From: Polaribacter glomeratus
GTDB taxonomy: Bacteria > Bacteroidota > Bacteroidia > Flavobacteriales > Flavobacteriaceae
Direction of reading: 5' to 3'
DNA length: 64,000 nt
NCBI RefSeq assembly: GCF_002954665.1
Contig: NZ_MSCM01000002.1
Span: 902,767-966,766 of the forward strand
Part shown: one piece after another, positions 2,850 to 58,253 of the stretch
How positions within the stretch are numbered: the first letter of the stretch is position 1
Layout: every line of letters begins with the position of its first letter
Program-made: the position numbers and the translations under genes
Notes under the pieces: model-generated
Seen by the model: the letters and a program-made list of their open reading frames with translations, nothing else
Databases searched by the model: none
Told to the model about the DNA's origin: nothing

Positions 2850-3428
2850 TTATTTATTTAAAAAATCAGCAACTAACTCTTCTGCTTCTTTTAAAGCAAC
2901 TTCTAATTCGTAGTTTTTGATAATTTTATCAAATTGCGGTGCTGTTGCTAATTCTACAGAAGCTTTTGCAATACGCATATTAATTTTTTCTTCACTTTCT
3001 GTTTTACGCTTCTTTAAACGTATTTTTAATTCGTCTACACTTGGTGGTTTTACAAAAACCGATAGTGTTTCGTCTGGAAATTTCTTTTTAATTCGTAAAC
3101 CACCAACAACATCTATATCAAAAATAACGTGTTTTTTAAGTGCCCAAATACGTTCAATTTCACTGTTTAAAGTTCCGTAAAAACTATCTCTGTAAACTTC
3201 TTCCCATTCTAAAAATGCATCACTTTTAATGTGGTTTTTAAACTCTTTTAGAGAGATAAAGTAGTAATCAATTCCGTTTTCTTCAAAGCCTCTTGGTTCT
3301 CTAGAAGTTGCTGATATAGAGAATTCTAGATTAAGTTTTTCTTGTTTTAATAAGTGGCGAACGATAGTAGTTTTTCCAGAACCTGAAGGTGCTGAAAACA
3401 CAATTAATTTTCCTTTAAAATCTGACAT
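2850..3428 (-). CDS. gmk: Guanylate kinase
   Basis: This 192-residue cytosolic kinase phosphorylates GMP to GDP. The P-loop APSGSGKT spans 13-20, and the GMP-binding segment includes SATSREPRGFEENGIDYYF around 39-57. The length matches bacterial Gmk. It follows yicC in the same direction, a pairing common in bacteria and kept here, with 75 bp between them occupied by a short tandem and inverted repeat. Confidence 0.97.
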   Translation of the reverse strand: MSDFKGKLIVFSAPSGSGKTTIVRHLLKQEKLNLEFSISATSREPRGFEENGIDYYFISLKEFKNHIKSDAFLEWEEVYRDSFYGTLNSEIERIWALKKHVIFDIDVVGGLRIKKKFPDETLSVFVKPPSVDELKIRLKKRKTESEEKINMRIAKASVELATAPQFDKIIKNYELEVALKEAEELVADFLNK

Positions 3429-11846: not shown

Positions 11847-12902
11847 GTGATTACAACAGATATCTTAATTATTGGCGCAGGACCAACAGGTTTGTTTACC
11901 GTTTTTGAAGCGGGTTTGTTAAAGCTACGTTGTCATTTAATTGATGCTTTGCCGCAAGCTGGCGGTCAATGTTCAGAAATTTATCCGAAGAAACCAATTT
12001 ATGATATTCCTGCATATCCAGAAATTTTAGCAGGCGATTTAACAGATAAATTACTAGAACAGTGCAAACAATTCGAACCAGGTTTTACACTTGGCGAACG
12101 CGCAGAAACGATTGATAGACAAGAAGATGGTTCTTTTATTGTAACTACAAATAAAGGGACAAAACATCAGGCGAAAATTGTTGCAATTGCGGGTGGTTTA
12201 GGTAGTTTTGAACCCAGAAAACCGCCAATTCCTAATATTACAAATTTTGAAGATAAAGGTGTCGAATATATTATTCGTGACCCAGAATTTTATAGAAATA
12301 AAAAAGTCGTTATTTCTGGTGGAGGAGATTCTGCTTTAGATTGGTCAATTTTTTTAACCAATATTGCGTCATCAGTAACTTTAATTCACAGAAGAAACGA
12401 ATTTAGAGGTGCTTTAGATTCAGTTGATAAAGTACAGGAATTAAAAGACGCAGGTAAAATAACCATGATTACGCCTGCCGAAGTTAAAGGAATTGTTGGT
12501 ACTGATAAAGTAACAGGCGTTTCTGTGGTGCAAGAAGGCGGCGAAGAATTTACGATTGAAACAGATCATTTTATTCCGCTTTTTGGTTTGTCACCAAAAT
12601 TAGGTCCCATTGCAAATTGGGGATTAGAAATAGAGAAAAACGCTATTAAAGTAGATAACGCTTTAGATTACCAAACCAATATTCCAGGAATTTATGCAAT
12701 TGGTGATGTAAATACCTATCCGGGTAAATTAAAATTAATTTTATGCGGATTTCACGAAGCCACTTTAATGTGTCAAAGTGCTTTTCAACGTATTTTTCCT
12801 GATAAAAAGTATGTAATGAAATATACAACTGTTGGCGGAGTTGATGGTTTTGATGGTACAAGAAAAGAAGCACCAAAAGCTGTGATTAAAAAGATTGAGT
12901 AA
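11847..12902 (+). CDS. Ferredoxin/flavodoxin-NADP reductase, thioredoxin-reductase-like (YumC type), GTG start
   Basis: The 351-residue flavoprotein has the FAD Rossmann motif IIGAGPTGLF (8-17), the NADP motif VVISGGGDSALDW (about 150-162), and a C-terminal FAD contact GIYAIGDVNTYPGK. The redox CxxC of thioredoxin reductase is missing, which marks the ferredoxin-NADP reductase branch. It should move electrons between NADPH and ferredoxin or flavodoxin. The GTG start at 11847 gives MITTDILIIGAG, placing the FAD motif correctly. It follows the Mrp and NifU-like genes, so a role supplying electrons to Fe-S proteins is plausible. Confidence 0.9.
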   Translation: MITTDILIIGAGPTGLFTVFEAGLLKLRCHLIDALPQAGGQCSEIYPKKPIYDIPAYPEILAGDLTDKLLEQCKQFEPGFTLGERAETIDRQEDGSFIVTTNKGTKHQAKIVAIAGGLGSFEPRKPPIPNITNFEDKGVEYIIRDPEFYRNKKVVISGGGDSALDWSIFLTNIASSVTLIHRRNEFRGALDSVDKVQELKDAGKITMITPAEVKGIVGTDKVTGVSVVQEGGEEFTIETDHFIPLFGLSPKLGPIANWGLEIEKNAIKVDNALDYQTNIPGIYAIGDVNTYPGKLKLILCGFHEATLMCQSAFQRIFPDKKYVMKYTTVGGVDGFDGTRKEAPKAVIKKIE

Positions 12903-21534: not shown

Positions 21535-21579
21535 TTAACATTAAGTTAACATACCAGTGCTGTAAAAGAAAGATTTTTG
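21535..21579 (+). promoter_or_regulatory. TTAACA direct repeat plus -7 element, TonB receptor 1 promoter
   Basis: TTAACA at 21535 and again at 21546 (11-bp period, spacer TTAAG) precede the -7 element GATTTTTG, with the first T of TTTG at 21576. The distance from the last hexamer to TTTG is 30 bp, identical to three other promoters near 54-57 kb. There is no -33 TTG at normal spacing, consistent with activator dependence. Confidence 0.62.
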
Positions 21580-21607: not shown

Positions 21608-24190
21608 ATGAAAAATTTTAAAAACTTATTATTTATAGCCTTGTTCTTTGTAACGGCTACAGTTTTAGGACAAACTAAAATTTCGGGTATTATCGTTGAT
21701 GAAACAAATCAACCATTGCCAGGAGCAAGTGTTTTAGAAAAAGGTACTAAAAATGGTACTACAACAGATTTTGATGGTAATTTTACATTAACTCCTAAAT
21801 CAAATTCTGGTGTTCTTGTAGTCTCTTTTATTGGTTACACCAGAAAAGAAGTTGCTTTCTCTTCGTCTAAAGCAAACATTGGTACTATTAAATTAGCTGA
21901 AGATGCAGGTTCTTTGGATGAAATAGTTGTAATGGCTACATCATTTGCTATTGATAGAAAAACCCCAGTTGCGGTTTCTACAATTAAAGCGTCGGATATT
22001 GAAAGAAAATTAGGAACGCAAGAATTTCCTGAAATTTTAAAATCTACTCCAGGGGTATATGCTACCAAATCTGGTGGTGGTTTTGGAGACGGTCGTATTA
22101 ACATGCGTGGTTTTAACTCAGAAAATGTTGCGGTTATGATTAACGGAGTTCCAGTTAATGATATGGAAAACGGAAGAGTATATTGGTCTAACTGGGCTGG
22201 TTTATCAGATGTTACATCTGCTATGCAGGTGCAAAGAGGTCTTGGAGCTGCTAAGGTAGCTGTACCTTCTATTGGAGGAACAATTAATATTTTATCTAAA
22301 ACTTCTGATGTAGAAAAAGGTGGTAATATTATTGCTTCAACAGGTAATAATGGATTCCAAAAATATGGTTTCACATTATCAACAGGTTTAATGGATAATG
22401 GTTTTGCTTCTACAGTGTCTTTTTCAAAGACTTCTGGAGAGGGTTATGTAGATGGTACTCAGTTTGAAGGTTATAACTATTTTGTAAACTTTTCTAAGGA
22501 TATAAACGATAGTCATAAATTATCTTTTACAACTTTTGGTTCGCCTCAAAGACATGGTCAAAGACAAAACAGAAGTACAATTGCTACAATTAGAAATGCA
22601 CAATCAGGGATTCGTTTTAATCCAGATTGGGGTTATAAAAATGGCCAAGTAACACATATAGAGGATAATTTTTACCATAAATCGCAAACATCATTAAACC
22701 ACTATTGGACTATTAGTGATGTAACATCATTATCAACTGCAGCATACGCTTCATATGGTAGTGGTGGTGGAGGTGGTACAGCAGGTACTAATAGAGATCT
22801 ATTTAATCAAAGATTAGGTGGTGCAGATCAACCCGTAGATTTCGATAATATTGTTGCTATAAATAGAGCAAATGGTTCTTTAGGTTCTGAAGCTATTTTA
22901 AGAGCTTCTAGAAATGATCACGAATGGTATGGAGTATTGTCTACATTTAAAACAAAATTAAATGATAATTTAGACTTAATTGCTGGTGTAGATTGGAGAA
23001 CTTATGTAGGAAGACACTACAGAGAGGTTACCGATTTATTAGGAGGTGACTACTTTTTAGATGTTAATAGTAGAGGTGTTGGAAATAATGTAAACCGTTC
23101 TAGTGACGCTCTTCAAGTTGGTGATAAAATGGGTTATAATAATGACGGAAATGTAGGTTGGTTAGGTTTCTTTGGTCAATTAGAATATGGAACTGATGAT
23201 TTTAATGCTTTTTTATCTACTTCTGTTCAAAGAAGTTCATATCAAAGAGTAGATTATTTTCAATATGATTTAAGTACAGAAGCTGGTAGAGACTTAGCTA
23301 CTACTGATAAAGTAAATTTAGATGGTTATAGTATAAAAGGTGGAGCAAATTATAGAATAGATGATGTTCAAAACATATTTGCAAACATTGGTTACTTTGA
23401 AAGACCCGCAATTTTTGATGCAGTATATCAAGGATTTAATAATACAAACGTAAATGCAAATGCTGAAAATGAAAAGATTTTTAGTATGGAATTAGGATAC
23501 GGAATTAGAAGTGAGAAATTCGCTGCAAACATAAATATTTACAGAACACAATGGAATGACAGAAGTTTCTCAAGAAGCATACCTGCAGATCCTACAGTTA
23601 CTGGTTCAGAAGATTTTACAGCAAATCTTTTAGGCGTTAATGCTCTACATCAAGGTGTTGAGTTTGATTTTACGTACAAGTATTCAGATAAATTAAATTT
23701 TACAGGTATGCTTTCTTTAGGAGACTGGACGAATGCTAACGATTTAATAGATGTGCCAATTTTTGATGAAAATCAAGTTCAAAGAGGTACGTTAGATTTA
23801 CTTGTTGATGGATTAAAAGTTTCTGATGCTGCACAAACAACCGCTGCTTTGGGAATGTTATACAATTTTTGGGACAAATCTTCTATTACAGTAGATTATA
23901 ATTATTTTGCAGATATGTATGCGCAAATTAATCCTCTAGATAGAGCTGATTTTGATCCAAGTACTCCTTCAGTAAGAGGAGGTAACGCATGGAAAGCACC
24001 TAACTATAGTACATTTGACGCAAGTTTCCGTCATGGTTTTAACCTTGGTGAATTCGATACTACGGTTACAGTTCGTGTAAACAACTTGTTAGACACAGAA
24101 TATGTAGCTGATGCTCTAGATGCTGCTGACCCATTAGTTTGGTTTGGATTTGGTAGAACTTTTAGCTTAGATTTAAAAATTAAATTTTAA
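21608..24190 (+). CDS. TonB-dependent outer-membrane receptor
   Basis: This 860-residue receptor has a signal peptide (1-21), a carboxypeptidase-regulatory-like domain (about 24-105, ISGIIVDETNQPLPGASV), a plug (about 120-232, with FPEILKSTPGVYATKSGGG and INMRGFNSENVAVMINGVPV), and a 22-strand barrel ending in Phe (LDLKIKF). It imports a substrate across the outer membrane using TonB energy. The lipoprotein gene 14 bp downstream is probably its partner, in a SusC/SusD-like relation though the lipoprotein is not SusD. The promoter repeats suggest joint control with the phosphate transporter at 52-54 kb. The ligand is unknown. Confidence 0.93.
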   Translation: MKNFKNLLFIALFFVTATVLGQTKISGIIVDETNQPLPGASVLEKGTKNGTTTDFDGNFTLTPKSNSGVLVVSFIGYTRKEVAFSSSKANIGTIKLAEDAGSLDEIVVMATSFAIDRKTPVAVSTIKASDIERKLGTQEFPEILKSTPGVYATKSGGGFGDGRINMRGFNSENVAVMINGVPVNDMENGRVYWSNWAGLSDVTSAMQVQRGLGAAKVAVPSIGGTINILSKTSDVEKGGNIIASTGNNGFQKYGFTLSTGLMDNGFASTVSFSKTSGEGYVDGTQFEGYNYFVNFSKDINDSHKLSFTTFGSPQRHGQRQNRSTIATIRNAQSGIRFNPDWGYKNGQVTHIEDNFYHKSQTSLNHYWTISDVTSLSTAAYASYGSGGGGGTAGTNRDLFNQRLGGADQPVDFDNIVAINRANGSLGSEAILRASRNDHEWYGVLSTFKTKLNDNLDLIAGVDWRTYVGRHYREVTDLLGGDYFLDVNSRGVGNNVNRSSDALQVGDKMGYNNDGNVGWLGFFGQLEYGTDDFNAFLSTSVQRSSYQRVDYFQYDLSTEAGRDLATTDKVNLDGYSIKGGANYRIDDVQNIFANIGYFERPAIFDAVYQGFNNTNVNANAENEKIFSMELGYGIRSEKFAANINIYRTQWNDRSFSRSIPADPTVTGSEDFTANLLGVNALHQGVEFDFTYKYSDKLNFTGMLSLGDWTNANDLIDVPIFDENQVQRGTLDLLVDGLKVSDAAQTTAALGMLYNFWDKSSITVDYNYFADMYAQINPLDRADFDPSTPSVRGGNAWKAPNYSTFDASFRHGFNLGEFDTTVTVRVNNLLDTEYVADALDAADPLVWFGFGRTFSLDLKIKF

Positions 24191-24204: not shown

Positions 24205-25278
24205 ATGAAAAAAATATTTTATTCTTTCGCAATCCTTTCTTTGTTGTTTACATCATGTAACCCAATGGAAGATATTTATGCAGAAATTGATGCTCAAGAA
24301 GTAGTAATTTCTGGAGAATCAGTATACACATTATCAGATGCTGACTATACAGCTTTAAAATTAAATTTTGGAAATTTTAGTAACTTAAATGATGCTAAAA
24401 CAATGTTGCCTGCTTTTTTATCTAGAAAGTATCCTGCTTGGGGTAAAGAATCTTTAGCAGCCGTAACTTTCAAGTTATTCAATAAGAAAAACGATCAAAA
24501 AAGTTTAATTACTTATAAAGCAAACGATCAAGACTATACAGATGCAGGACTAAGGTTTCCTAATATATCTAATTATGAGCAAATGCTTCAATTATTAAAT
24601 TCTTTATATCCTACACCTGATAATAGAGTTTTAGTGTCTTTAACATACACAGAACGCGATAGTGGTATAAATAGTGAAGTAGAAGATGGCTTTATTTATT
24701 CTAATGGAACTTGGGAGAAGTCAAGTGGAATTACTCTAGATGAATACAAAGCAATGGGAGAGTCTAGAGCTCAATTTTCTAGTGAAGATGAAGCCCTAGT
24801 TAAAATACCAGTTTATTTAAAAAATAAATTAGCTTATGAAGCACCAAAGGCAGGTGATATCGAAGGCGTTATGTATAAGTTATACGATAGTAATGATAGA
24901 GTTGTAAAAAGTTATGTTGTGTTTTTTATTTATGACGGTGCAAACTGGGCTAAATATAACAATGTAATTAATCAAACTATAAAATTTGGTCACGATGGTA
25001 TAAGTTGGGTTCCAGATAATACTGTAAAATATACTTTAACTAATGCAGATTATACTTTAGTTGGTAATGGTCAATATAATAATTTTGATGTAAGAACAGG
25101 TAAAGCAGAAGAGCCAGAAACTAAACGATTGGAAAAAATAAACACAATTTTATTAAATAATTTCCCTTCATCAACAGATGGTCAAAAATACATTGTTTCT
25201 TACAACATTTACAATGGAGCTAATGATGTTTGGAGTTTAGCTGTTATTAAAGAAGGAAATGCTTACGTAAAACAATAA
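24205..25278 (+). CDS. Surface lipoprotein made of about four internal repeats, partner of TonB receptor 1
   Basis: The 357-residue protein has a lipobox LLFTSC (Cys18) followed by NPMEDIYAE; acidic residues after Cys fit a Bacteroidota surface-export signal. The mature part contains about four related units that start near 40, 115, 178 and 273. The clearest are YTLSDADYTALKLNFGNF and YTLTNADYTLVGNGQYNNF, each followed by a helix, a K(Y/N)P-like turn and a strand ending YxLYN or FKLFN. I do not recognise the family. Being 14 bp behind the receptor it probably binds the same ligand at the cell surface. A strong terminator follows. Confidence 0.85.
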   Translation: MKKIFYSFAILSLLFTSCNPMEDIYAEIDAQEVVISGESVYTLSDADYTALKLNFGNFSNLNDAKTMLPAFLSRKYPAWGKESLAAVTFKLFNKKNDQKSLITYKANDQDYTDAGLRFPNISNYEQMLQLLNSLYPTPDNRVLVSLTYTERDSGINSEVEDGFIYSNGTWEKSSGITLDEYKAMGESRAQFSSEDEALVKIPVYLKNKLAYEAPKAGDIEGVMYKLYDSNDRVVKSYVVFFIYDGANWAKYNNVINQTIKFGHDGISWVPDNTVKYTLTNADYTLVGNGQYNNFDVRTGKAEEPETKRLEKINTILLNNFPSSTDGQKYIVSYNIYNGANDVWSLAVIKEGNAYVKQ

Positions 25279-53995: not shown

Positions 53996-54020
53996 TTTTA
54001 TTTTTAAATATTAAACGAAG

Positions 54021-54065
54021 CAAAGTTAATTAGTCATTATTTTTGAGACGTTATCTTAATGTTAT
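54021..54065 (-). promoter_or_regulatory. PiT promoter: ATAACA/ATAACG pair and -7 element
   Basis: On the minus strand ATAACA begins at 54065 and ATAACG at 54054, 11 bp apart with spacer TTAAG. The -7 element TAACTTTG has the first T of TTTG at 54024, 30 bp downstream of the second hexamer. The hexamer pair and the spacer match the TonB receptor 1 promoter. Confidence 0.6.
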
Positions 54066-54160
54066 GAAATTTTAGTTAAAATTACATTAAAAACACATTG
54101 TCTTAAAGGAAATTTAACTAAAAAATTTTTCACCAAAATACTCATTTTCTCTCAACTTAG

Positions 54161-54238
54161 GTAACAATTACTTAACAGATTATTAACTGAATCATAATTT
54201 ACAAATAACATAGAGTTTACAAAGTAGATACAATTTTG
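54161..54238 (+). promoter_or_regulatory. TonB receptor 2 promoter: six hexamers with exact 11-bp period
   Basis: GTAACA (54161), TTAACA (54172), TTAACT (54183), ATAATT (54194), ATAACA (54205) and TTTACA (54216) are each 11 bp apart. The -7 element CAATTTTG has TTTG starting at 54235, 30 bp after the ATAACA at 54205. The array resembles a PhoB or PhoP box, which is also an 11-bp direct repeat. Confidence 0.65.
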
Positions 54239-54260
54239 CAGAAGTAATTAAACGATAAAA

Positions 54261-56966
54261 ATGAGAAAAATTTTATGTATTGCTTTGTTAATTTTGAGTC
54301 AACTTATAAATGCTCAAGACAAAGGCACATTAAAAGGAACGTTAACAGATAAAGAAACGAATAATGAGTCTTTACCTTTTGCAAACGTACTTATTAAAGG
54401 TACTACTATAGGTACAACCACAGATTTTGATGGTAACTATTCTATTAAAGTTCCTGCAGGAAACCATATTGTAGTTTTTAGTTTTTTAGGATATAAATCT
54501 ATAGAGAAATCTTTTTCAATTAAGGTTGGTGAAACGGTAGTAATTAATCAATTATTATCTGCAGAAGAAGGTGTTGCTTTAGATGACATTATTATAACGA
54601 CAACATCAAGTAAAGAAACTGCAACAGCTTTAATTTTAGAGCAAAAGAAAGCAGTATCAATCAAAACAACAATTGGTGCTCAAGAATTGGCTATAAAAGG
54701 AGTTTCTGACGCAGAAGGCGCAGTAACTAAAACAGCCGGAGTTTCTAAAGGAGCAAAAAATGTTATTGTTAGGGGTTTGGGAGATAGATATAACTCAACT
54801 ACATTAAATGGATTGCCTTTGCCATCGGAAGATCCTGAGTATAAAAATATTTCTTTAGACTTTTTTGATACAGGTATTATAAAAAATATTGAAGTCAATA
54901 AGGTTTTTACATCCGATTTAAGTGGTGATGTTGGTGGCGCAAATATCAATATTTCATCAAAAGAATTAGTTAAAAGAAGCATGTTTACTATTAGTGGTTC
55001 TGTTGGCGCAAATACGCAAACAGTTTCTAAAGATTTTTTAACAATTGCTGGCACAAATAAATTTGGTACTCAAAATTTAGGAATTCCTGTTAATGATTTA
55101 ACAAAGTATAGTTTCAGTAATTCATGGAAACCAGAAAGTCAGAATTTTCAATTAAATAATAATTTCTCTTTCGCAGGAGGAAGAAAATATGATATTAAAG
55201 ACGATACATTTAGCTTTTATATCGTTGGTGGTTTTGATGGAAGTTATAATTATATTGATGGTAACATTAAACAAACTACCAGTTCTGGTGAGGTTTTTCA
55301 AGACCAAGATTTCACGAAATACGATTATACGGTTTCTCAAATGATCATGGCAAACTTAAATTATAAGTTTGAAGCTGGTCATAATATTGCATACAATCAT
55401 TTATTTATACATAACAACAAACAATCTGTGGGTGATTACTTCGGATTTAACAATCCTGAGCAAGATGGCGATTTAGAGTTTCAAAGAAGACAACAAACGA
55501 ATAACAATGAATTGTATGTAAATCAATTAATTGCAAATTATAAGTTTTCTGATCGATTAAATTTCGAAACAAAAGGTTCTTTAAATTTTATTAGAGGAAA
55601 TGAGCCAGATAGAAGAACGAACAAATATCTTTTAAGAGACGATTATTATAGTCCTCAAACAAGTTCTGCAGGAGAAAATGAGCGTTATTTTGCCAAGTTA
55701 GAAGAAAATGATTACGCGGCTAACGGTAAATTTTCTTACAAATTAAAAAAAGGTGAAGACATTAGTGTTTTAGAACTTGGTGGAGATTACAGATATACAG
55801 AACGTTTGTTTTCTGCAACAATTTTTAATCATGATTTTTCTAGCCGAGTTGCTATTGATTTAGAAAACCCGGATGCCATTTTTAATCAAAATTCTATAGA
55901 CAATTCTATTTTCGAATTAGAAACAGGTAGAGGAAGTGCAAATAATCCTAATGCATTTATACCTTTTACATATAGAGGGAAAAGACAAATATTTGGTGCT
56001 TTTGGTAATTTAGTATATCAATTTAGTGATAATTTTATTGCTTCTTTTGGTGCAAGATTTGAGAAAATTCAGCAGCTAGTTACTTACAATACCAATATAG
56101 CACAATCTGCTATTGATGGCGCATCTAACTTAGATAGAACGTATGTTTTGCCAAGTTTTAATATAAAATATAATTTTAACGAAAACAGTATTGTTAGAAT
56201 TGCAGGTAGCCAATCGTATACTTTTCCTCAGTTTAAAGAAACGGCACCGTTTAAATATCAAGATATTAGTTTTTCATCACAAGGTAATCCAGATTTAAAA
56301 CCATCAGACAATTATAATTTAGATGCTAAATATGAGTATTATTTTTCTTCATCAGAATTGATAACAGTTACTGGGTTCTATAAATTTATAAAAGACCCAA
56401 TTGCTAGAAGTGAAATTCCTTCTGGTGGTAATACGTTAACGTATTTAAATGTTGGTAATGACGCAAGTGTTTATGGATTGGAGTTAGAAGCAAGAAAAAG
56501 CATTTACAAAATAGAAGATAAAGACTTAGAAATTATGGCAGGTTTAAATACTTCGTTGTTAATGTCTAATGTTAATTTAGATAAAAGTTCTGTTGCTCAA
56601 TTTACAAATGCAACCAGTAATTTAGAAGGCGCAACGCCATTTTTATTAAATGCAGATATTTCTATCAACAAAAAGATTGAAGACAATACGTTTATCTCGT
56701 CAATAGTATTTAATTATTTCAGCGAGAGAGTTTATTCTATAGGTACAAGAGGTTTTGAAAATGTATTAGAAAAAGGAATTCCAACGTTAGACTTGGTTTC
56801 TTCTTATGAATTTAATAAACATTATAGTATTAAATTAAAGGCGATTAACTTATTAAACCCAGACTTTCAGATATCTAGAGCAGGTTTTAATGGAGGTGAT
56901 AATGTAGTGTTAAGAAATTATAAAAAAGGTGTTAACCTAAGTATAGGTTTCTCTTACAATTTATAG
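54261..56966 (+). CDS. TonB-dependent outer-membrane receptor
   Basis: The 901-residue receptor has a signal peptide (1-18), a carboxypeptidase-regulatory-like domain (about 22-105, LKGTLTDKETNNESLPFANV), a plug (about 130-240, VIVRGLGDRYNSTTLNGLPL, NKVFTSDLSGDVGGANINI) and a barrel ending LSIGFSYNL. It lies divergent from the PiT transporter and 117 bp before the beta-repeat lipoprotein. The intervening promoter array suggests phosphate-responsive control, so it may take up a phosphorus compound; the ligand is not shown by the sequence. Confidence 0.93.
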   Translation: MRKILCIALLILSQLINAQDKGTLKGTLTDKETNNESLPFANVLIKGTTIGTTTDFDGNYSIKVPAGNHIVVFSFLGYKSIEKSFSIKVGETVVINQLLSAEEGVALDDIIITTTSSKETATALILEQKKAVSIKTTIGAQELAIKGVSDAEGAVTKTAGVSKGAKNVIVRGLGDRYNSTTLNGLPLPSEDPEYKNISLDFFDTGIIKNIEVNKVFTSDLSGDVGGANINISSKELVKRSMFTISGSVGANTQTVSKDFLTIAGTNKFGTQNLGIPVNDLTKYSFSNSWKPESQNFQLNNNFSFAGGRKYDIKDDTFSFYIVGGFDGSYNYIDGNIKQTTSSGEVFQDQDFTKYDYTVSQMIMANLNYKFEAGHNIAYNHLFIHNNKQSVGDYFGFNNPEQDGDLEFQRRQQTNNNELYVNQLIANYKFSDRLNFETKGSLNFIRGNEPDRRTNKYLLRDDYYSPQTSSAGENERYFAKLEENDYAANGKFSYKLKKGEDISVLELGGDYRYTERLFSATIFNHDFSSRVAIDLENPDAIFNQNSIDNSIFELETGRGSANNPNAFIPFTYRGKRQIFGAFGNLVYQFSDNFIASFGARFEKIQQLVTYNTNIAQSAIDGASNLDRTYVLPSFNIKYNFNENSIVRIAGSQSYTFPQFKETAPFKYQDISFSSQGNPDLKPSDNYNLDAKYEYYFSSSELITVTGFYKFIKDPIARSEIPSGGNTLTYLNVGNDASVYGLELEARKSIYKIEDKDLEIMAGLNTSLLMSNVNLDKSSVAQFTNATSNLEGATPFLLNADISINKKIEDNTFISSIVFNYFSERVYSIGTRGFENVLEKGIPTLDLVSSYEFNKHYSIKLKAINLLNPDFQISRAGFNGGDNVVLRNYKKGVNLSIGFSYNL

Positions 56967-56982: not shown

Positions 56983-57038
56983 ATAACAATTCTTTAAGGT
57001 TTAGTTAAAGTAAAATAAACCTTGTTAGTTCAACTTTG
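56983..57038 (+). promoter_or_regulatory. Promoter of the beta-repeat lipoprotein: three 11-bp-spaced hexamers and -7 element
   Basis: ATAACA (56983), TTAAGG (56994) and TTAAAG (57005) are 11 bp apart. The -7 element CAACTTTG has TTTG starting at 57035, again 30 bp after the last hexamer. The gene therefore probably has its own promoter and is not only read through from the receptor. Confidence 0.58.
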
Positions 57039-57083: not shown

Positions 57084-58253
57084 ATGAAAAAAACAATTTT
57101 ATCAATCGTAACAATTGCTTCTTTAGTATTTACAGGATGTTCTTTAAGTGAAGATGATAACACACCGGTTGATTCAGGAACTGTTACACCTCAAAATTTA
57201 GCAGGAAACTTAACATCAGATTTAACCATAAAATCTGGAATTGCTCATAATTTAACAGGAGCTCTTTTAGTAAAAGATGGCGCAACCTTAACAATTGAAG
57301 CTGGTACAACTATTAATGCTTTGGCAGGTGGTACCGATGTGTATATTTTGGTAGAAAAAGGTGGTAAATTAATTGCAAACGGAACGGCTGCAAACCCAAT
57401 TAAATTTACTTCTAGCGCAACGAGCCCAAAAGCTGGTGATTGGGGCGGAATTATCTTAAACGGTAATGCGCCTTTAAGTCGCCAATCTGGTTCACAAAGT
57501 AATGCTGCAACAGAAGTAAAAAACTCAATTTTATTTGGTGGTTCTGATGCTGCAGATAATTCTGGAATTTTAAATTACGTAATTTTAGAGTTTACAGGAG
57601 CAAGAATTGATGACGAAGCAGAACACAATGGTTTAACCTTAAACGGTGTTGGTTCTGGTACAATTATTTCTAACATTGCTATTTTAAATGGCGATGATGA
57701 CGGTATTGAGTTTTTTGGAGGAACAGTAAATGCATCAAACATTTTAGTGGTAAATGCTAAGGACGATATGTTCGATTTTACCCAAGGTTATGCGGGTACT
57801 TGTACTAACTTATATGGTATTAGAGAAAACGGTTATACAGCTGTAACTTCAGATCCAAGAGGAATTGAAGCAGATGGTAATTTAGATGGTAACTCTCCTT
57901 CGGATATCAACGAATCTAAGTTTACAATTAATGGTGTAACAATTATTAACAATGCAGATGGTGTAGAAATGTCTGACGGAATTAAAATCAGAAGAGGTGC
58001 TACTGCTACCGTTACAAATGCTTATTTAGTTTTAGGTTCTGGAGCAAAATTTGGAGATGTAATTGATTTACAAGATTCTAAATCTGATGCAGATGATGCA
58101 ACTAAAATAACAGCGGTTGCTAGTATTGCAAACGGTTTAGATATTACAGATATAAAAAATACAGTAAGTGGTGGAGCAACGATTGTTTTAACAGCTGGTA
58201 CAAGTGGCGGTGCAGATAAATCTGTATTTGCTTGGACAGGATATTCTTTTTAA
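57084..58253 (+). CDS. Surface lipoprotein with right-handed parallel-beta-type repeats
   Basis: The 389-residue protein has a lipobox LVFTGC (Cys19) followed by SLSEDDNTPVD, an acidic surface-export signal. The body has repeated G-rich strands typical of a beta-helix (LLVKDGATLTIEAGTTINA, GDWGGIILNGNAPLSRQSG, NGLTLNGVGSGTIISNI, DDGIEFFGGTVNASNILVV, GVEMSDGIKIRRGATATV). Many Asp and Asn residues in turns could bind calcium. It is coupled to TonB receptor 2 by position and shares its promoter type, so it may be the surface binding partner. The catalytic role, if any, is unknown. Confidence 0.87.
   Translation: MKKTILSIVTIASLVFTGCSLSEDDNTPVDSGTVTPQNLAGNLTSDLTIKSGIAHNLTGALLVKDGATLTIEAGTTINALAGGTDVYILVEKGGKLIANGTAANPIKFTSSATSPKAGDWGGIILNGNAPLSRQSGSQSNAATEVKNSILFGGSDAADNSGILNYVILEFTGARIDDEAEHNGLTLNGVGSGTIISNIAILNGDDDGIEFFGGTVNASNILVVNAKDDMFDFTQGYAGTCTNLYGIRENGYTAVTSDPRGIEADGNLDGNSPSDINESKFTINGVTIINNADGVEMSDGIKIRRGATATVTNAYLVLGSGAKFGDVIDLQDSKSDADDATKITAVASIANGLDITDIKNTVSGGATIVLTAGTSGGADKSVFAWTGYSF

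Follow-up and report, generated by a model that had tools for sequence, protein, structure and literature searches.

The 64,000-nt stretch of the Polaribacter glomeratus genome analysed here (the window; the whole genome is 4.06 Mb) contains an intergenic region in which TTAACA-like hexamers recur every 11 bp upstream of two divergent genes, and the question it raises is whether these repeats are the operators of a phosphate regulon. A first-pass annotation had proposed that such hexamers lie at a constant 30 bp from the TTTG of the -7 element and that a Pho-type regulator binds them. We confirmed that the reported hexamer arrays with their fixed -7 distance are real. Judged from sequence, we are also highly confident that they represent PhoB-type operators of a Pho regulon, set in constant register to the -7 element of Bacteroidota.

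The intergenic region separates a gene for a PiT-family phosphate transporter (PF01384; 51740-53995, minus strand) from that for TonB-dependent receptor 2 (54261-56966, plus strand), which is accompanied by its lipoprotein partner (57084-58253, plus strand). Polaribacter filamentus frames (L237) matched all three with 94-95% identity. As the annotation had stated, hexamers with an 11-bp period can be read directly in both divergent promoters, six on the receptor side and two on the PiT side. The receptor-2 array (54161-54221, plus strand), a proposed PhoB operator with room for up to three dimers, consists of GTAACA (54161), TTAACA (54172), TTAACT (54183), ATAATT (54194), ATAACA (54205) and TTTACA (54216), and its -7 TTTG (54235-54238) starts 30 bp past hexamer 54205. 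On the minus strand, ATAACA at 54065 and ATAACG at 54054 form a putative Pho-type box of the PiT promoter, ATAACA-N5-ATAACG (54049-54065), with the TTTG (54021-54024) 30 bp past hexamer 54054; PiT orthologues in relatives carry corresponding boxes. The promoter of receptor 1 (21608-24190, plus strand; lipoprotein partner at 24205-25278, plus strand) has the putative box TTAACA-N5-TTAACA (21535-21551, plus strand), and its TTTG (21576-21579) is found 30 bp past hexamer 21546; orthologues of receptor 1 in relatives are preceded by the same box. Thus, the proposed 30-bp rule was exact at 54205, 54054 (minus strand) and 21546, but its fourth instance, before the receptor-2 lipoprotein, was weak. 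There, an array of ATAACA, TTAAGG, TTAAAG and TAAACC (56983-57021, plus strand) precedes a TTTG at 57035, and since the hexamer at the 30-bp position, TTAAAG at 57005, matches in 4 of 6 letters only, this array is considered tentative.

To score these promoters, a weight matrix comprising two hexamers and the -7 element was trained on 25 promoters of relatives (11 PiT and 14 receptor 1), with the own genome excluded, and applied to the window on both strands, 127,910 positions in all. The three highest scores were found at the reported promoters, 21535 (33.0), 54065 on the minus strand (25.3) and 54194 (9.8). The 57005 promoter scored 2.5, a value reached by only 8 positions of the window. Allowing one mismatch, the six-fold array matched once in the window and never in 100 shuffles. 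A degenerate pattern of two hexamers and TTTG gave 4 matches against 0.65 expected, a number reached by 1 of 100 shuffles; these were the three reported promoters and a site at 12874 on the minus strand. A pair score of 10 was reached by none of the 50 other genes of the window, 23 of which are without a usable TTTG. For rplU, named by the annotation as a control lacking the hexamer, the -30 position of the single usable TTTG indeed reads AATATT.

Loose patterns behaved differently. In the own genome, TTAACA-N5-TTAACA with one mismatch was found 144 times and its reversal 160 times; when the TTTG was included and one mismatch allowed, TAACA-N6-TAACA occurred 17 times against 11, not clearly above the control; and a sister form with an N13 gap, again with one mismatch, occurred 6 times against 15. 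Such counts are uninformative, and the evidence therefore rests on exact geometry and conservation. The annotation had argued that the period and the constant distance are not cheap in AT-rich DNA, but the loose period-11 repeat alone is no commoner than its reversal. Strict patterns and one-mismatch scans alike returned few further members in the own genome outside the three promoters of the window; candidates such as L090, L097 and L101 sit upstream of genes.

Across genomes, the exact pattern was strongly enriched. TAACA-N6-TAACA-N24-TTTGC was found 126 times in 299 Flavobacteriaceae genomes (236 genera), compared with 3 occurrences of the reversed pattern, and 110 of the 126 precede genes for PiT (92), related TonB receptors (16) or the lipoprotein (2). 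The annotation had named a genome scan with hits unrelated to phosphorus genes as a result that would speak against it; the scan instead placed most matches on phosphate-linked genes. Fetching and classifying 124 of the matches assigned 91 to PiT, 9 to receptor-2-like, 6 to receptor-1-like and 2 to lipoprotein genes, leaving 16 with other genes or none; the remaining two, the own receptor 1 and the PiT gene of G020, were assigned separately. In a set of 39 genomes, exact TAACA-N6-TAACA-N24-TTTG matched 41 times against 8 for the reversal. By best match of the downstream frames, 11 of the 41 belonged to PiT and 16 to receptor-1-like genes (one in another family), with one match each for a Na/Pi cotransporter, a porin-like gene, a receptor divergent to phoB and a secreted nuclease; the other 10 had other genes or none, five of them lying inside reading frames. 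Matches elsewhere (16 of 126 and 11 of 41, respectively) were counted against the Pho reading.

In 24 genomes, the gap to TTTGC was allowed any length between 5 and 35; 24 of 44 matches fell at 24 and 4 at 13, 11 bp apart, and varying the core spacing from 0 to 14 placed 24 of 45 matches at N6. The N13 spacing occurred 29 times in the 299 genomes against 2 reversed, and counting one doubly fetched locus once, 20 of these 29 belonged to porin genes of the phosphate-selective type, 2 to PstS, 1 each to a receptor-2-like and a lipoprotein gene, and 5 to other genes or none. PiT promoters of the genus were where the pattern was first noticed, and common descent accounts for some of the PiT matches, but the spacers have drifted apart (median pairwise identity 0.38 over 24 nt) while box and distance were kept, and several unrelated genes carry both.

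Measured from TTTG, the hexamers start 19, 30, 41, 52, 63 and 74 bp upstream, a single 11-bp phase. Averaging 17 receptor-2 promoters over 78 offsets gave 74, 30, 19, 63, 52 and 41 as the best six, all equal to 8 modulo 11, and 6 paralogues show the same phase; ranked by mean, this phase came first in 6 of 7 gene classes and second in receptor 1. Usage of the offsets differed by class, with PiT and receptor 1 using 41 and 30, porins and several pstS genes 30 and 19, and receptor 2 all six. The constant distance of 30 bp thus stood at three promoters of the window, but the rule is broader than proposed, having six offsets. A pair score of at least 10, reached by less than 1% of dinucleotide shuffles, was obtained for 15 of 25 PiT, 13 of 17 receptor-2, 5 of 6 receptor-2 paralogue, 6 of 8 porin, 5 of 9 pstS and 6 of 6 lipoprotein promoters, the last including that of the window. 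The 15 of 15 obtained for receptor 1 is circular and provides no independent test, since those promoters were found with the pattern itself. At 57005 the phase holds for the window and for 5 close orthologues, but kinship alone could explain agreement among such close relatives, and 57005 stays tentative.

For pstS, 13 loci with strong matches were read, of which 8 were scored together with the locus of the relative G033. Three (L197, L199 and L203) were left out because the gene starts directly behind the end of a porin-like frame, and L202 and L205, where no box-like sequence was seen, were likewise outside the scored set. One of the nine scored promoters (L201) had no TTTG in range and instead carries a TTTACA-TTAACC pair at the 41/30 register before TTTA. 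None of 8 phoB promoters reached a pair score of 10 for a forward box. A box before phoB, allowing autoregulation, is common in Pho systems, but it is not universal.

Considered apart from the motif, the gene context also points to phosphate. The relative G033 has phoB-phoR in divergent orientation to pstS. Behind pstS come the pst genes and a PhoU-like gene, named here from sequence and gene order, then a gene for a Na/Pi cotransporter that includes a PhoU domain, and one resembling a porin gene; boxes are located upstream of pstS, the cotransporter and this porin-like gene. A further TTAACA array of the same locus (L158, about 3340-3400) lies far upstream of pstS, nearer to phoB, in pstS orientation. 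In relatives belonging to several families (G035, G025 and G027, together with G020, G010 and G011 of the own genus), genes like phoB and phoR diverge from receptor 2 and its lipoprotein. In other relatives the pair is found beside a porin and PiT, and the one porin scanned matched PF07396 (phosphate-selective porin O and P). The porin gene of several relatives lies between PiT and receptor 2 (for example L171:6765-8306), whereas in the window (53996-54260), G015 and some GTDB loci (L233, L260 and L262) no porin was seen and PiT directly faces receptor 2.

A GTDB scan with one genome per species, using the last three receptor-2 repeats and the TTTG as the pattern, returned 47 matches. Of these, 44 precede receptor-2-like genes (43 by tblastn, and L223 by its first residues), one precedes a lipoprotein gene beside phoBR in Sinomicrobium, and two, in a Clostridia bin and a Flavobacterium, were unrelated. 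The divergent side held phoB at 7 of the 47 loci and PiT or a porin at 20, while the remaining 20 showed neither in the sequence examined. The own genome gave only two weak PstS-like matches to PF12849, so the pst operon could not be used as a test there.

A few matches lie before genes of other kinds. The exact pattern was located 24-26 bp before a gene for a 164-aa lipoprotein in three loci (L359:171-662, L412:170-661 and L423:172-663), a possible new Pho member; only that of L359 was scanned, and it contains a CAP domain (PF00188). An N13-type box lies upstream of a frame with a glycerophosphodiester phosphodiesterase domain (PF03009; L328:1571-2476), and another box lies upstream of a protein with Endonuclease_1 and lamin-tail domains (L083:1574-3043), the domain set of Pi-induced extracellular nucleases described for F. 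johnsoniae (PMC8115612).

Which regulator might bind these arrays? The best PhoB-like protein of the own genome is encoded at C2:1198294-1198950 on the minus strand (217.6 bits, compared with 152.7 for the next), and a PhoR-like kinase gene adjoins it, away from the window. Neither candidate reaches the curated cut-off of its model (PhoB or PhoR), and although the effector domain of the PhoB candidate is related to that of E. coli PhoB (1gxp; E = 3.8e-13), 15 other OmpR-type entries score better. PhoB is therefore the natural but unproven binder of the arrays.

An alternative is that another OmpR-family regulator with an 11-bp direct-repeat site binds the arrays, for example one for envelope stress whose targets include phosphate transport. 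Two further regulators of the genome (C1:113959 and C1:1462905) match nearly the whole PhoB model, and the phoB promoter itself is without a forward box, as this alternative would allow. However, several relatives, including members of other families, have phoBR divergent to the array, and the box is common to pstS, Na/Pi cotransporter, porin and PiT promoters, which makes a different OmpR-type regulator unlikely. We judge it still less probable, and indeed very improbable, that the arrays act as phased A/T-rich bent DNA or a UP-like element with no specific regulator. The 30% GC content and the 11-bp period would suit such an element, as would a loose repeat that is genome-wide no commoner than its reversal; but the reversed pattern, of equal composition, was nearly absent from the 299 genomes, the forward matches cluster at phosphate-linked genes, and box and distance were retained across diverged spacers.

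Chance is the least credible source of the arrays. Single hexamers are cheap in AT-rich DNA, and the one-mismatch count with TTTG in the own genome was not clearly above that of its reversal, but cross-genome counts, matrix ranks, shuffles and gap histograms all oppose a chance origin, and the 126 matches against 3 refute it, except perhaps for 57005. Given the enrichment of the exact pattern, its phosphate-linked targets and the position of phoBR divergent to receptor 2 in several relatives, the Pho-type regulator proposed by the annotation is supported, and a PhoB-type protein remains the preferred binder.

If PhoB is the binder, low phosphate would lead the histidine kinase PhoR to phosphorylate PhoB, a member of the OmpR family, and PhoB dimers would then occupy paired WTAACA half-sites, spaced by 11 bp, in head-to-tail orientation. 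Half-sites at fixed distances of 74, 63, 52, 41, 30 and 19 bp before the TTTG of the Bacteroidota sigma-A -7 element would place PhoB on one face of the DNA against RNA polymerase, and the six half-sites of receptor 2 could hold three dimers. The bound PhoB would activate transcription, switching on uptake across the inner membrane by PiT together with the two TonB receptor/lipoprotein systems.

The -7 elements agree in part with this scheme. The Bacteroidota -7 consensus is given as TAnnTTTG (PMC9723704), from which that of receptor 2, CAATTTTG, departs. Receptor, lipoprotein and porin promoters have the TA in 5 of 51 cases compared with 16 of 33 control promoters (Fisher p = 0.0002, which is too small because orthologous promoters are not independent), and family-wide pattern matches have GA at that position in 79 of 124. 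The poor -7 elements at 54231-54238, 21572-21579 and related loci are consistent with activator dependence. Against a general rule of weak -7 elements, 18 of 22 PiT promoters of relatives keep the TA. One could tentatively imagine a graded Pho switch of the Flavobacteriaceae, which we consider possible but somewhat doubtful: promoters with a weak -7 element (GA, CA or GT in place of TA) would be wholly PhoB-dependent, six-site arrays would load three successive dimers against an RNA polymerase specific to Bacteroidota and give receptor 2 a steeper response than two-site promoters, and TonB receptor, beta-helix lipoprotein, porin and PiT would form one phosphate route independent of Pst.

Because the TTAACA arrays resemble the sites of phosphate-starvation regulators, the two outer-membrane systems most likely scavenge phosphorus, carrying phosphorus compounds across the outer membrane. 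In F. johnsoniae, orphan TonB receptors and lipoproteins are induced under phosphate limitation (PMC8115612). Among them, the receptor Fjoh_0545 and the lipoprotein FII, Fjoh_0546, which belong to the phoBR cluster, changed by +8.0 and +9.9 upon Pi depletion (fold-change column of Table 1, values that the text of PMC8115612 treats as log2). That paper relates the modelled structure of FII to a polygalacturonase and its sequence to a low-Pi lipoprotein of Caulobacter, to which FI, FII and FIII are all described as homologous. For the receptor-2 lipoprotein of the window, the lipoprotein cysteine C19 was invariant among 23 sequences (its own and those of 22 relatives), and the structural model (pLDDT 78.2) has strands throughout, a predicted beta-helix. 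Foldseek matched it to beta-helix proteins, best to phage tailspikes and at weaker E-values to pectate lyases, with a tailspike as the single match at E <= 0.001. Receptor 2, whose match to TIGR01782 is below the cut-off of that model, and its lipoprotein are thus probably of the PUSIV/ElpS type, judging from context, fold and the systems described in PMC8115612 and PMC2996285. The receptor-1 lipoprotein has no Pfam or NCBIfam match; 14 fetched stretches gave 5 candidate frames for its relatives, 4 of them longer (525-533 aa).

Pho boxes themselves are known, but a consensus, geometry or regulon of this kind for Bacteroidota or Flavobacteriaceae was not found in the literature searched, which did contain papers on phosphate responses; nor was an operator sequence for the Pi-induced TonB receptors and lipoproteins of F. 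johnsoniae, or a Bacillus PhoP consensus. The words promoter, motif and PHO box are absent from the main text of PMC8115612, and the passages of PMC4796936 mark putative Pho boxes at plcP of marine bacteria with no sequence. An exact, alignable box at a fixed distance from the -7 element would make the Pho regulon predictable in flavobacterial genomes and, as a predicted Pho box, would link both receptor systems found in the window with phosphorus. The geometry between box and -7 element would also give direct mutational access to the way in which an OmpR-family activator acts on a Bacteroidota promoter.

The PhoP box of Bacillus subtilis consists of TTAACA-like direct repeats, with a hexamer nearly identical to that of the window, while the PhoB box of E. 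coli has the core TGTCA, compared with TAACA in flavobacteria, and a fixed placement before the promoter core. Within the same phylum, PhoB of Bacteroides fragilis binds the pst promoter in gel shifts, and expression of pstC is nearly lost without it; the passages of PMC3547664 that describe this state no site sequence or consensus. The PUSIV system of F. johnsoniae is alike in pairing a TonB receptor with the FII lipoprotein, a pair that lies beside phoBR and is strongly induced by Pi depletion (PMC8115612), whereas the pair of the window adjoins PiT and phoBR is elsewhere in the genome. ElpS (CC0171) of Caulobacter crescentus is similarly a phosphate-starvation lipoprotein with its gene beside a TonB receptor gene, although cc0171 was reported to be expressed alike whether the medium was rich or poor, and a type II system secretes the lipoprotein (passages of PMC2996285). 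As a class, Pho boxes are 11-nt direct repeats, B. subtilis being among the bacteria with similar features, and the E. coli PhoB box has two of them (passages of PMC4415409). The flavobacterial repeats are like the B. subtilis PhoP box in lying about 11 bp apart at phosphate genes, but they differ from it in standing in fixed register with the -7 TTTG and in following one another up to six in succession.
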